Position numbers and translations under genes: made by a program | Shown here: piece by piece, positions 4,930 to 17,840 of the stretch | Layout: each line of letters starts with the position of its first letter | How positions within the stretch are numbered: the first letter of the stretch is position 1 | Virus record (IMG/VR): IMGVR_UViG_3300042566_001605 | Coordinates: 1-23,558 of that record | DNA from: a virus | Direction: 5' to 3' (one strand) | Length of the DNA stretch: 23,558 nucleotides | The notes under the pieces: generated by a model | Told to the model about the DNA's origin: nothing | Databases searched by the model: none | What the model saw: only the letters and a program-made list of their open reading frames with translations

Positions 4930-4964
4930 CGAAACACTCTTAAAACAATATATATCTATATTAT

Positions 4965-6626
4965 ATGCAAAAACGAAAAATATACTGGTTAAATTCTGAT
5001 AGTCGAAAATTTTTAGAGAGAGGATATCTCTTAGAGGGAGAAACTCCAGAACAGAGAATACAGGACATTGGAGATAGAGCGCAGGCGTTATTAGATGATA
5101 TGCCTGGTTTTTCAGACAAGTTTGTAGACTATATGTCAAGAGGTTTTTATTCTCTTGCTTCTCCAATCTGGTCAAACTTTGGCCGTAAACGCGGGTTGCC
5201 AATCTCATGCTTTGGTAGTTATATACCTGATGACATGAATGGAATCCTCTCAAAGGTCGGAGAGATTGGTACAATGTCAAAAGTCGGTGGAGGAACTTCC
5301 GCATATTTTGGAGATGTGCGCGGTCGAGGGGCCTCTATCTCTTCTGGTGGTGCTGCTACAGGTGTGCATCATCAACTTACAGTTTTCGATTCGCTTATCA
5401 ACTATGTCTCGCAAGGCAACGTTCGTCGTGGTTCTTTTGCAGCCTATTTGCCTATTGATCACCCTGACATTGAAGAGTTTCTTAAGATTCGGTCTGAAGG
5501 TAACGCTATTCAAGACTTGTCCATAGGCGTATGTGTATCAGATGAGTGGATGAAGAGTATGATTGGCGGCGACAAAGACAAACGTAAAGTTTGGAGTACA
5601 GTCATTAAAAAACGATTTGAGTCTGGCTATCCTTATATCTTTTTCTCTGATAATGTAAACAACGGCGCACCCCAGATGTATAAAGACAAGGGTCTTAAGA
5701 TACATGCAAGTAACCTTTGCACAGAAATCTTTTTGTCTACATCAGAAGATGAAAGTTTTGTATGTGACCTCTCTTCACTTAATCTTGAAAAGTGGGACGA
5801 GATTGCAGAGACAGATGCAGTAGAGACGCTTGTATATTTCTTGGATGCAGTCATGTCTGAATTTATTTTGAAGACTGGAAATCCTGGCAATGAATTTATG
5901 AGAGCGCCTCGTAAGTTTGCTATCAATCAGCGTGCACTCGGCGTAGGTGTGCTTGGTTGGCATTCATTGTTGCAGTCAAAGATGGTGCCATTCGAGTCGA
6001 TGGAAGCAAAGATGATGAACAATCAAATTTGGAGTACTATCCGTGCCAAGGCAGACTCTGCTACCTCCCAACTTGCAAAACTTTTTGGCGAGCCATTTAT
6101 GTTAGAAGGCTATGGTCGACGCAACTCTACTACGCTTGCAATTGCTCCTACTACAAGTAGTTCGTTTATACTTGGACAAGTATCTCCAAGTATTGAACCG
6201 CTGAACAGCAATTATTTTGTTAAGGATCTTGCTAAAGGCAAGTTTACCTATCGCAATCCATATCTTGAAAAGTTGCTCAAAGAAAAAGGCAAAAATGATC
6301 AAGAAACATGGAAGGATGTTCTTACTCATGGTGGTTCTGTACAACATCTAGAATTTCTTTCTGCAGAAGAAAAAGATGTATTTAAAACCTTTGGTGAAAT
6401 TAGTCAAAAAGAAATTGTCATTCAGGCAGCACAACGTCAAAAGTATATTGACCAAGGTCAATCACTTAACTTGATGATTGCACCTACTGCAAAGCCAAAA
6501 GAAGTCAACGAGCTTCTTATCTTTGCTTGGGAACAAGGAGTCAAGTCGTTGTATTATCAACGTAGCGCAAATCCAGCACAGGAACTTGCACGTTCAATCT
6601 TAACTTGCAGCACATGTGAAGGGTAA
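4965..6626 (+). CDS. nrdA: Class I ribonucleotide reductase, alpha (catalytic) subunit
   Basis: A 553-residue catalytic subunit that makes deoxyribonucleotides with NrdB. All key residues are present: Cys82 (LPISCFGSY) and Cys267 (SFVCDLSSLNL) as the reducing pair, Asn250-Leu-Cys252-Thr-Glu254 (NLCTEI) with the thiyl Cys, Tyr530-Tyr531 (SLYYQRS) for radical transfer, and the C-terminal Cys548-x-x-Cys551 shuttle (TCSTCEG). The protein begins directly with YWLNSDSRKFLERGYL, which aligns well inside longer NrdA proteins, so the N-terminal ATP-cone is absent. That implies no dATP activity switch; shortened NrdA of this type is known from marine phages. The start lies 28 bases upstream of the first ATG of the opposing HNH frame. 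The 3' end overlaps a small GTG-start gene by 11 bases. Confidence 0.95.
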   Translation: MQKRKIYWLNSDSRKFLERGYLLEGETPEQRIQDIGDRAQALLDDMPGFSDKFVDYMSRGFYSLASPIWSNFGRKRGLPISCFGSYIPDDMNGILSKVGEIGTMSKVGGGTSAYFGDVRGRGASISSGGAATGVHHQLTVFDSLINYVSQGNVRRGSFAAYLPIDHPDIEEFLKIRSEGNAIQDLSIGVCVSDEWMKSMIGGDKDKRKVWSTVIKKRFESGYPYIFFSDNVNNGAPQMYKDKGLKIHASNLCTEIFLSTSEDESFVCDLSSLNLEKWDEIAETDAVETLVYFLDAVMSEFILKTGNPGNEFMRAPRKFAINQRALGVGVLGWHSLLQSKMVPFESMEAKMMNNQIWSTIRAKADSATSQLAKLFGEPFMLEGYGRRNSTTLAIAPTTSSSFILGQVSPSIEPLNSNYFVKDLAKGKFTYRNPYLEKLLKEKGKNDQETWKDVLTHGGSVQHLEFLSAEEKDVFKTFGEISQKEIVIQAAQRQKYIDQGQSLNLMIAPTAKPKEVNELLIFAWEQGVKSLYYQRSANPAQELARSILTCSTCEG

Positions 6627-10658: not shown

Positions 10659-10703
10659 ACCCACCATGCCTCTCAACGATGCACACTTTGGTGGGTATTT
10701 TTT
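10659..10703 (+). terminator. Intrinsic terminator after the ClpP-like gene
   Basis: An 8-bp perfect stem ACCCACCA (10659-10666) with TGGTGGGT (10689-10696), a 22-base loop, and a following T-run (ATTTTTT). It closes the replication-gene block before the tRNA region. The long loop makes it less than ideal. Confidence 0.55.
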
Positions 10704-16211: not shown

Positions 16212-16224
16212 ACTTTGCCGCTAG

Positions 16225-16318
16225 AGAGGTGCACGGGCTCCATGCCCGGTACATAGGCGCAGATGACGTGCAGGACTGCATATGCGGGTGCGTACGGGAA
16301 TGTGTCTATGTCGCCTCT
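16225..16318 (+). ncRNA. Compact three-way-junction RNA between tRNAs
   Basis: P1 AGAGGTG (16225-16231) with CGCCTCT (16312-16318); P2 hairpin CGGGC-TCCAT-GCCCG; P3 ACATAG with CTATGT directly abutting the 3' strand of P1; inner pairs GCGCA/TGCGT and TGCA-GGAC-TGCA. It has no T-loop and no CCA, so it is not a standard tRNA. Probably a stable RNA comparable in context to the extra stable RNAs made from the T4 tRNA cluster. Confidence 0.5.
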
Positions 16319-16339
16319 TTAGTCGGCTCAATTTTCAAT

Positions 16340-16419
16340 CGCGGGGCAGTCAGTAGTGGTGCTGAACTAGTCTCATAAGCTAGGCTTCGGTGTGGGTTCG
16401 ACTCCCACCCCCGCAACCA
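16340..16419 (+). tRNA. tRNA-Met(CAT), initiator-like
   Basis: Anticodon arm CTAGT-CTCATAA-GCTAG with CAT at 16374-16376; T-arm GTGGG-TTCGACT-CCCAC; encoded CCA. The acceptor CGCGGGG faces CCCCGCA, giving a C1-A72 mismatch as in bacterial initiator tRNA, and the 3' end CCCCGCAACCA matches E. coli tRNA-fMet. The three G-C pairs of the initiator anticodon stem are absent. Confidence 0.8.
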
Positions 16420-16422
16420 ATT

Positions 16423-16500
16423 TTTAGCAATGACAATCGGTGAGTTAAATGCGCATAAGGCTTGAGATTCCGTGTGGGTCAATAACCATACATTGCTAAA
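16423..16500 (+). ncRNA. tRNA-sized RNA with 10-bp closing stem
   Basis: TTTAGCAATG (16423-16432) pairs perfectly with CATTGCTAAA (16491-16500). Next to the 3' strand is a hairpin TGTGG-GTCAATAA-CCATA in the T-arm position. The D and anticodon regions do not fold convincingly, and no CCA is encoded. It fills the gap between tRNA-Met and tRNA-Tyr almost exactly. Confidence 0.5.
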
Positions 16501-16501
16501 T

Positions 16502-16587
16502 GGGTAGGTATGCCGTTAAGGAGACGGTTCGGTCTGTAAAACCGACGCTTAAAAGCTCGCTGGGATCGTTACCCAGACTGCCCACCA
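16502..16587 (+). tRNA. tRNA-Tyr(GTA)
   Basis: Class II tRNA: anticodon arm TCGGT-CTGTAAA-ACCGA with GTA at 16536-16538, 14-base variable arm, T-arm CTGGG-ATCGTTA-CCCAG, discriminator A, encoded CCA. The acceptor has six pairs plus one mismatch. The T-loop carries A54/T58. Confidence 0.85.
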
Positions 16588-16620
16588 TCTTTGTATAAGT
16601 AATTTTGCAACCGAGCTCAA

Positions 16621-16697
16621 GAAGAGTGGTGATGCACATAGGTGATTAGGTTCACGCCTTCGGGTTAATATGACAAGTATGCCTGCGTAAGCTCTTC
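16621..16697 (+). ncRNA. Possible tRNA-sized structured RNA
   Basis: GAAGAGT (16621-16627) pairs with GCTCTTC (16691-16697) over a 77-base span; an internal GCC-TTCG-GGT hairpin has a UUCG tetraloop. No T-arm or CCA. An alternative stem GAGCT/AGCTC (16613-16617, 16690-16694) competes. A T-rich tail follows. Weak evidence. Confidence 0.35.
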
Positions 16698-16716
16698 ATA
16701 TATTTTTAATGTATCA

Positions 16717-16724
16717 TATAAATA
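16717..16724 (+). promoter_or_regulatory. T4-type late promoter
   Basis: TATAAATA 5 bases before the ATG at 16730. Confidence 0.65.
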
Positions 16725-16729
16725 GTAGT

Positions 16730-17155
16730 ATGAATGCATTTAATTCTCCATGTTCAGATCCATTAGTTGAAGCTGCAAAGCAAATTCTCGAAAAGGTCGC
16801 TATTGCACCAGTCACTGGCTTTGGACGGTCTGTTCCAGAAAGCATTCAAGATTATCTGCAAGCAATTTTAAATTCTGCCGACACACCCCGTGGGTCAATC
16901 ACACACGCCAAATTTTTCGACTCTGGCTATACTGGTGTCTCATTTGAGATTGGTGGACAAGAGTATACGCTCACCATGAGCATGGGCAAGATGGGGGCTG
17001 ATGACTATATTCGCGGAAATATAGCACTCGCCAAAACCGGCACACACAAGCCAATCCTCTCAATTAGAGGTGGCGACAGCCCGAACAGTGTCTTTCCAAC
17101 AATGGCTGACATTGGTAAAATGACACGTGCTGTGTCTGACCTGATCAGACGTTAA
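16730..17155 (+). CDS. Late protein with DPLVEAAKQIL leader, possible head cargo
   Basis: A 141-residue protein. Its start, MNAFNSPCSDPLVEAAKQIL, matches the leader shared by the five genes at 21342-23558 (Asp-Pro/Ser-Leu-x-x-Ala-Ala-x-x-Ile-Leu), and it too has a late octamer just upstream. A clear L-x-E cleavage motif is not evident; ILEK is the nearest. The body (YTGVSFEIGGQEYTLTMSMG, DDYIRGNIALA, ADIGKMTRAVSDLIRR) looks like a small alpha/beta domain of unknown function. The frame is open to 16709, but the late promoter position favours 16730. Packaging in the capsid is inferred from the shared leader. Confidence 0.55.
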   Translation: MNAFNSPCSDPLVEAAKQILEKVAIAPVTGFGRSVPESIQDYLQAILNSADTPRGSITHAKFFDSGYTGVSFEIGGQEYTLTMSMGKMGADDYIRGNIALAKTGTHKPILSIRGGDSPNSVFPTMADIGKMTRAVSDLIRR

Positions 17156-17163
17156 AACTTTTC

Positions 17164-17237
17164 GCGTCATAAGTGTTACGGCAGCACATTAGACTTCCAC
17201 TCTGAAGGCGTGAGTTCGACCCTCACATGACGCACCA
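17164..17237 (+). tRNA. tRNA-Gly(TCC)
   Basis: Acceptor GCGTCAT/ATGACGC, anticodon arm TTAGA-CTTCCAC-TCTGA with TCC at 17196-17198, T-arm GTGAG-TTCGACC-CTCAC, encoded CCA. Confidence 0.92.
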
Positions 17238-17240
17238 ATT

Positions 17241-17341
17241 TGGGGTGAAGCTTAGCGGCTTCTATTCTCTTCATGCCCTCTACGCTTGACGGGTGCACAC
17301 TAGACAGCGCACGGTTTAAACATGACATGAGAATAACCCCA
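17241..17341 (+). ncRNA. Three-way-junction RNA with fully stacked helices
   Basis: P1 TGGGGT (17241-17246) with ACCCCA (17336-17341); P2 GAAGC-TTAGCG-GCTTC follows with no gap; P3 TATTCTC (17263-17269) with GAGAATA (17329-17335) also abuts both neighbours. P3 extends through TCATG/CATGA. A T6 run comes 3 bases after P1. The same P1-P2-P3 layout is seen at 16225-16318 with unrelated sequence. Confidence 0.6.
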
Positions 17342-17535
17342 TCATTTTTTCCCTGCCATTGTAGGCGATGATCCTACAATGAGCATTGAGGCTAAGAGCG
17401 GGTTGGCAACCCGATGACGCCGAATGTAATCCGACGCAAATTAAACTAGGCTTGGAGTCGCTACCAAGATGAAATAGTCACTGCGTTTCTTCAAGTTGAC
17501 TCTGGTCAATTATTCGGTAGTGGGGAAAATACTTT
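17342..17535 (+). ncRNA. Non-coding stretch with several strong hairpins
   Basis: No ORF of note. CATTGTAGG-(7 bases)-CCTACAATG is a perfect 9-bp hairpin (17357-17381); CGGGTT-GGC-AACCCG (17399-17413) is 6 bp; CTTGG/CCAAG and TTGAC-TCTG-GTCAA follow. These look like one or more structured RNAs, with boundaries not definable by eye. Confidence 0.45.
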
Positions 17536-17604
17536 GCGAGAGGGATCATACGGAGATCGCTAGGCCCATAGTCTAGAGAGGAGGTTAAAGCCCTCCCCCT
17601 CGCA
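17536..17604 (+). tRNA. Aberrant tRNA with CAT anticodon, no encoded CCA
   Basis: A cloverleaf can be drawn: acceptor GCGAGAG/CCCTCGC (one A-C mismatch), D-stem GATC/GATC, anticodon arm CTAGG-CCCATAG-TCTAG, 3-base variable region, T-arm GGAGG-TTAAAGC-CCTCC. Position 33 is C instead of the near-universal T, only one base joins acceptor and D-stem, and CCA is absent. It may be a decayed Met tRNA or a mimic. Confidence 0.45.
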
Positions 17605-17739
17605 ATTCGTATCATGCGCGAATCCAAATATGTCATGACGCAGCTAGGTGTGGTTCCTAGCTAGCCCCAGCCCTGGGTGAGTGTAGCAGCAATCTGTCAT
17701 GGGCAAATTTTCACAAAATTGTGACCTCGGAGGTCAGTT
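17605..17739 (+). other. Non-coding stretch with hairpins before promoter copy B
   Basis: ATTCG/CGAAT, a 7-bp AGCTAGG-TGTGGTT-CCTAGCT hairpin and CCCA-GCCC-TGGG lie here in order. No ORF or tRNA can be supported. Confidence 0.4.
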
Positions 17740-17840
17740 TTTCTCTATACGGGGCTTAACTTCGGGACCTTTTTTCACTTTTTTGAAAAAAGTTGTGTAC
17801 TTTCTCTGCATTTTAGTGTATAATGATCATGTAAGCAACA
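17740..17840 (+). repeat. 101-bp duplicated promoter cassette, copy B
   Basis: 98/101 identical to 10752-10852, in the same orientation 6,988 bases away. Carries the second copy of the early-type promoter and of the TGTAAGCAACA transcript start. Confidence 0.9.
17796..17824 (+). promoter_or_regulatory. Early-type promoter, copy B
   Basis: TGTACT (17796-17801), 17-base spacer, TATAAT (17819-17824). It drives the small genes from 17864 and probably the tRNA block beyond. Confidence 0.75.

Follow-up and report, generated by a model that had tools for sequence, protein, structure and literature searches.

The RNA element and its fold in the window

The window, the whole stretch of DNA that was analysed, is a virus record of 23,558 bases (IMGVR_UViG_3300042566_001605) with genes for ribonucleotide reductase and an exonuclease and 20 tRNAs (ARAGORN). 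The 231-aa exonuclease had as top-ranked isolate Phage C48C1, classed Kyanoviridae, with 51 % identity, thus the window probably represents a T4-like phage. Inside its tRNA array (ARAGORN) lies an RNA element that starts 3 nt behind the end of a tRNA-Gly(tcc). This neighbour had been named in a preliminary description of the sequence and was recovered by ARAGORN and Rfam. The features of the locus are the following:

17164–17237, + strand: tRNA-Gly (anticodon tcc), immediately upstream of the RNA element (ARAGORN, Rfam)
17241–17344, + strand: RNA element, from P1 through TCA, where 15 of 22 relatives carry CCA (folds, relatives, 3' ends)
17241–17246, + strand: 5' strand of P1, UGGGGU, partner ACCCCA at 17336–17341, 6 bp (fold, alignment)
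17247–17262, + strand: P2 hairpin GAAGC-UUAGCG-GCUUC, GAAGC/GCUUC, 5 bp (fold; C-G to U-A and A-U to G-U changes)
17263–17269, + strand: 5' strand of P3, UAUUCUC, partner GAGAAUA at 17329–17335, 7 bp (fold, alignments)
17271–17275, + strand: 5' strand of P4, UCAUG, partner CAUGA at 17321–17325, 5 bp (fold, alignments)
17283–17286, + strand: 5' strand of P6, CGCU, partner AGCG at 17306–17309, invariant (alignment A6; unconstrained folds of L002, L055, L064 and L047)
17290–17302, + strand: P7, YGG/CUA with a 7-nt loop; palindrome GUGCAC at 17293–17298, followed by a conserved A at 17299 (alignment, hexamer survey)
17345–17350, + strand: T6 run past the RNA element (sequence)

The MFE fold of the element reproduced exactly the three helices of 6, 5 and 7 bp and the extra 5-bp stem of the preliminary description: P1, P2 and P3 meet with zero unpaired junction bases, and P4 follows P3. 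The mean pair probability of P1–P4 was 0.97–1.0 in the window allele. The folding energy was only moderately better than chance, with a z-score of -2.83 for positions 17240–17345 (3 of 200 shuffles as good) and of -2.27 with flanks (6 of 200). Among nine other distinct members, L002 alone was comparable (-2.60); the remaining ones ranged from -1.43 to +1.19, including positive values for L035 and L045.

The distal arm, left unresolved by the preliminary description, is the most conserved part of the RNA. It consists of (G/A)CC/GGU, CGCU/AGCG, a 3x3 internal loop UGA/NAC, YGG/CUA and the 7-nt loop NNGCNNA. This arm appeared in the unconstrained folds of L002, L055, L064 and L047 and was absent from those of the window and L011.

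That the element encodes no protein, as had been stated, held among the members translated. The window ATG at 17273–17275 reads ATA in L002, L011, L055 and L064. One frame of several members presents a similar peptide, but a start codon was kept in no frame, hence a coding role was rejected.

Relatives and conservation of the helices

Nine loci were retrieved via the neighbouring 148-aa protein. An exact 17-mer search returned 12 stretches, of which 11 were members; L013 had only the 17-mer in common, its locus was without tRNA, and it was excluded. With the core-pattern search that followed, the RNA core was located in 22 environmental viral contigs in total, all with tRNA genes on the fetched locus. 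A palindrome-free version of the pattern gave the same 22 contigs and 18 unrelated stretches. Because known members served to define the core pattern, loops differing elsewhere could be missed. A looser stem pattern pointed to L066 and L067, which were rejected as members (no tRNA on the locus, coding appearance), and otherwise to L061 and L062, both already included.

The divergent members L047, L035 and L045, all inside tRNA arrays, obtained E-values of 2.7e-12, 0.0063 and 5.7 with a profile built without them. Scores of 65, 46 and 42 bits were reached with model R1, which had been built with these members. The corresponding model without them, R2, gave an E-value of 2e-9 for L047 and of 0.19 for L035 and did not list L045. 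L035 and L045 were therefore accepted because of the common core of 27–28 nt and their place, not because of a model score. R1 recovered the family from 10 of 42 sources; among L086–L115, the other loci that were tested yielded nothing beyond chance-level scores. On 14 whole records, seven had one family match each, three had weak matches (E 0.33–8) and four had none.

Outside these environmental contigs the searches were negative. At the element, Rfam gave no match at gathering thresholds (whole window) or up to an E-value of 10 (16400–17800). In isolated phages, blastn with the window region had no match at 1e-5; the L047 core gave four matches, all with E about 10, and the L035 RNA two with E 3 within a coding gene, none of them a homologue. 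A blastn query including tRNA-Tyr matched 464 records, and all 20 matches listed aligned to its tRNA end. The best R1 match in Phage C48C1 had 13.1 bits (E 1.5), and the core pattern occurred 0 times in bacterial genome contigs. In the open-access literature, at the level of titles and abstract openings, no paper was recognised as describing this RNA. We consider it very probable that the element belongs to a previously undescribed family of conserved, structured small RNAs.

The alignment A5 comprised seven distinct full-length rows, with 97 % of the pair cells standard. In P2, L055 and L064 share a clean replacement of C-G by U-A, and an A-U/G-U change also occurs. In alignment A7, which is A5 together with L047, P3 and P4 of L047 were changed on both sides; five pairs had two-sided changes, a number matched by 0 of 500 shuffles, in an alignment that leans to the model and with one of the pairs, in P1, doubtful. 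For P1 a clear equivalent is missing in L047, and L035 and L045 have different basal stems with a different P1 sequence. P6 is invariant and thus yields no covariation, for or against. P7 is short and has a G-U pair and a C-A mismatch in some members. Conservation, pairing, a few compensatory changes and a covarying palindrome in the tip loop are documented at the level of the aligned sequences.

The preliminary description had put its emphasis on the gap-free three-way junction. In A5, this junction is intact in the window only, i.e., in one of seven distinct full-length sequences, while the other six rows carry a mismatch or gap there. It was discarded as the defining feature of the family. 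As relatives do not retain the junction and conservation peaks in the distal arm and its palindromic loop, the emphasis was misplaced. The assumption of a stable RNA fold fared better: the occurrence in 22 contigs, some compensatory changes and the location in tRNA arrays support a stable structured RNA as the likely product of the locus. It is the evidence from relatives that lifts the element above chance.

The 3' end and other features of the arrays

The RNA ends with CCCC-ACCA in 15 of the 22 contigs, followed by a T run, as do the neighbouring tRNAs of the array. The window and five of the contigs have ATCA instead; neither form is present in L035 and L045. An absence of tRNA features had been noted for the element, and indeed ARAGORN and Rfam detected no tRNA cloverleaf with T arm and anticodon loop at the element, but the 3' end of most relatives is of the tRNA type. 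This A-CCA end and the acceptor-like closing stem suggest a putative excision by tRNA-processing enzymes in most members.

One explanation for such an end is a decaying tRNA, of which the 3' end and P1 survived without function. The P2 loop resembles a D arm by eye, and arrays create fusions: in L096 (positions 4931–4984), the 5' part of the RNA element is joined to the 3' half of a tRNA-Tyr, apparently via a deletion between them, and this is the sole family remnant in L096. A decaying tRNA is nevertheless highly improbable, since a T arm is missing from the element, conservation is higher in the distal arm than in the tRNA-like parts, and the RNA was kept in lineages whose exonuclease identity has fallen to 77 %.

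The T6 run reported behind the element was confirmed by a coordinate check. A stem followed by T6 could end or protect transcripts, and the RNA could be a terminator or spacer between array modules, with a loop conserved by recent common descent. The placement of the element at module joins is in agreement with this, e.g., in L010 the RNA is directly followed by about 430 inserted bases that include a 136-aa reading frame. However, the T run is not fixed and varies in length: L010, otherwise identical there, has TTTT and then A. T runs also follow the tRNAs of the window array. The terminator scan flagged just the P2 hairpin, inside the RNA element, and lends no support to the T run as a terminator. 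Termination does not need conserved loops either. The core was kept in L047, L035 and L045 despite differing flanks and basal stems. A role as terminator or spacer is therefore improbable.

The arrays contained several other candidate RNAs. Directly behind the element, about 370 bases without detected gene (17346–17720, +) were 96–100 % identical in L002, L004 and L010 and 83–90 % in L011, L055 and L064; a portion of about 150 bases recurs in L047, L092 and L096. This stretch has no Rfam match and looks like a longer RNA. The spacer at 16212–16339 (+) has a very stable fold (z -5.07, 0 of 200 shuffles), 77 % identity in L035 and L055 and no Rfam match. A further conserved spacer RNA at 16420–16501 (+), with the core GCTTGARATTCCGTGTGNGT, was present in 17 viral stretches; it extends to tRNA arrays more remote than those with the main RNA and had no match in isolated phages or bacterial contigs. 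At L010:3448–3548, and also after the RNA in L035 and L045, there is a tRNA-like element with D and T arms and an expanded middle that holds CCC-AAGCAAA-GGG and further hairpins. ARAGORN did not call it in L010; it may represent a further RNA of the array or an unusual tRNA-Cys. tmRNA genes were located in the tRNA arrays of L047 (20171–20484), L055 (10239–10605), L087 (1740–2070) and L096 (3515–3895) by ARAGORN, those of L047 and L055 also by Rfam. Rfam matches to group I introns were obtained in L010 and L026, and one to GOLLD in the tRNA array of the more distantly related L099.

Elsewhere in the window, positions 10660–10696 (+) match the abiF RNA (RF03085, 47.1 bits, gathering 37). Its neighbourhood has no AbiF-type protein among ten ORFs (Pfam) or eight (PADLOC). 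The match is present in L035 too, and a similar stretch of 43–46 bases occurs in Salicola phage CGphi29 and Aeromonas phage PZL-Ah8. A solo RNA antitoxin against a host defence is one idea for this RNA.

The palindromic tip loop and its interpretation

The window and 11 contigs carry the loop hexamer GTGCAC, nine contigs ATGCAT and two TCGCGA, so that it is palindromic in all 23 sequences (22 contigs and the window). As control served the 18 unrelated matches of the palindrome-free pattern, with 11 distinct hexamers and loci without tRNA: none was palindromic. Compared with the L004 type, L055 and L064 carry two loop changes that together retain the palindrome. In A6, an alignment of nine rows that covers the loop, every one of the nine rows has standard bases at both loop pairs, and two-sided changes occur in five and two rows, respectively. 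Seven two-sided changed cells were counted versus 2.3 in shuffles, and 0 of 500 shuffles reached seven; the count of pairs with a double change was not unusual (343 of 500), and the visible loop changes go back to only about two independent events.

This covariation is the pattern expected for a kissing-loop homodimer. The same argument from a palindrome switch is applied to OLE and GOLLD in PMC12286853. Homodimerisation is the likeliest reading of the loop, with a probability that we place at or slightly below even.

As a rival, the RNA may be a structured monomer of the type of the T4 rnaC and rnaD, either a stable protein-binding RNA or a by-product of the tRNA operon, and the covariation would reflect an intramolecular N1-N4 closing pair over a 4-nt loop or the symmetry of protein recognition. 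The outer loop pair could indeed close a tetraloop in a single chain. The inner pair, with just two bases between its partners, is impossible inside one chain but nonetheless standard in all nine rows, an argument that rests on L035 and L045, which alone carry its change from U-A to C-G. The predicted fold of the window allele agrees with the monomer: with C at 17290 and C at 17312, the hexamer is hidden by internal pairing (mean unpaired 0.28; P6 0.06, P7 0.01). Among the seven alleles folded, including that of the window, the mean unpaired value was intermediate in L011 (0.44) and 0.80–0.92 in five others. The internal GUGC/GCAC pairing was rejected as a conserved fold because the pairing partner is absent in L002, L004 and L047.

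The T4 tRNA array speaks for such a monomeric RNA. It holds two noncoding RNAs of 139 and 119 nt, rnaC and rnaD, whose roles are described as unknown in parts of PMC3014915 and PMC9697503. The T4 rnaD ends with GCGCACC, completed to CCA in two of nine aligned rnaD sequences. Despite this similar setting in a T4-like phage tRNA array, homology to the element was not detectable. In the T4 region, the best R1 match (9.8 bits, E 0.13) was outside rnaC and rnaD, a match in rnaD had 6.2 bits (E 2), and R2 gave 4.2 bits at best. Among 20 pairwise tests, L035 with rnaD had a p-value of 0.016 and the window with rnaD of 0.03, both uncorrected, and a profile of nine rnaD sequences found no family member. 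Neither the pairwise tests nor the rnaD profile supported a homology to rnaD. Overall, a monomeric RNA has a possible, somewhat doubtful standing as explanation.

For the kissing-loop homodimer, two known systems offer likenesses. GOLLD and ROOL are phage RNAs, often near tRNA islands, that form homo-oligomers by kissing loops, and a GOLLD loop has palindrome-switch covariation, as stated in parts of PMC12286853. They are several times longer and have many contacts, whereas the element has one self-pairing loop, recognised from sequence; covariance-model searches for GOLLD and ROOL at the element (Rfam, gathering and E up to 10) gave no match. The HIV-1 DIS has an apical loop with the same 6-nt palindrome and a flanking 3' A, and pairs GUGCAC with stacking of this 3' A, according to sections of PMC7357161. 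The DIS belongs to a genome leader, whereas the element is a small phage RNA with a 7-nt loop and a 3-bp closing stem; the analogy implies no relationship. The loop of the HIV-1 DIS comprises 9 nt.

We tentatively propose a noncoding RNA of about 105 nt from the tRNA array that works as a kissing-loop homodimer, an explanation with somewhat less than an even chance, for which expression, excision and dimerisation are our inferences. The RNA would be transcribed as part of the array transcript of the phage and cut from it, probably via tRNA-processing enzymes. It would fold into a junction of P1, P2 and the long arm P3–P7. Two copies would join via the self-complementary hexamer in the tip loop of this arm, as a kissing loop that may pass into an extended duplex, and the dimer would be the working form. 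As a guess at its role, the stable RNA could bind or occupy a host or phage protein. The wider reading of a new family of about 105 nt, excised from tRNA arrays, mostly with a tRNA-type 3' end, and forming homodimers via a covarying palindrome as a miniature counterpart of GOLLD and ROOL, is slightly more tentative still.

Several other conserved array spacers without Rfam match suggest further unlisted RNA families in such arrays. If the proposed dimer is true, a loop that switches its sequence while staying self-complementary would offer a compact system of about 105 nt, in which RNA dimerisation and its use by phages would be testable by point changes.
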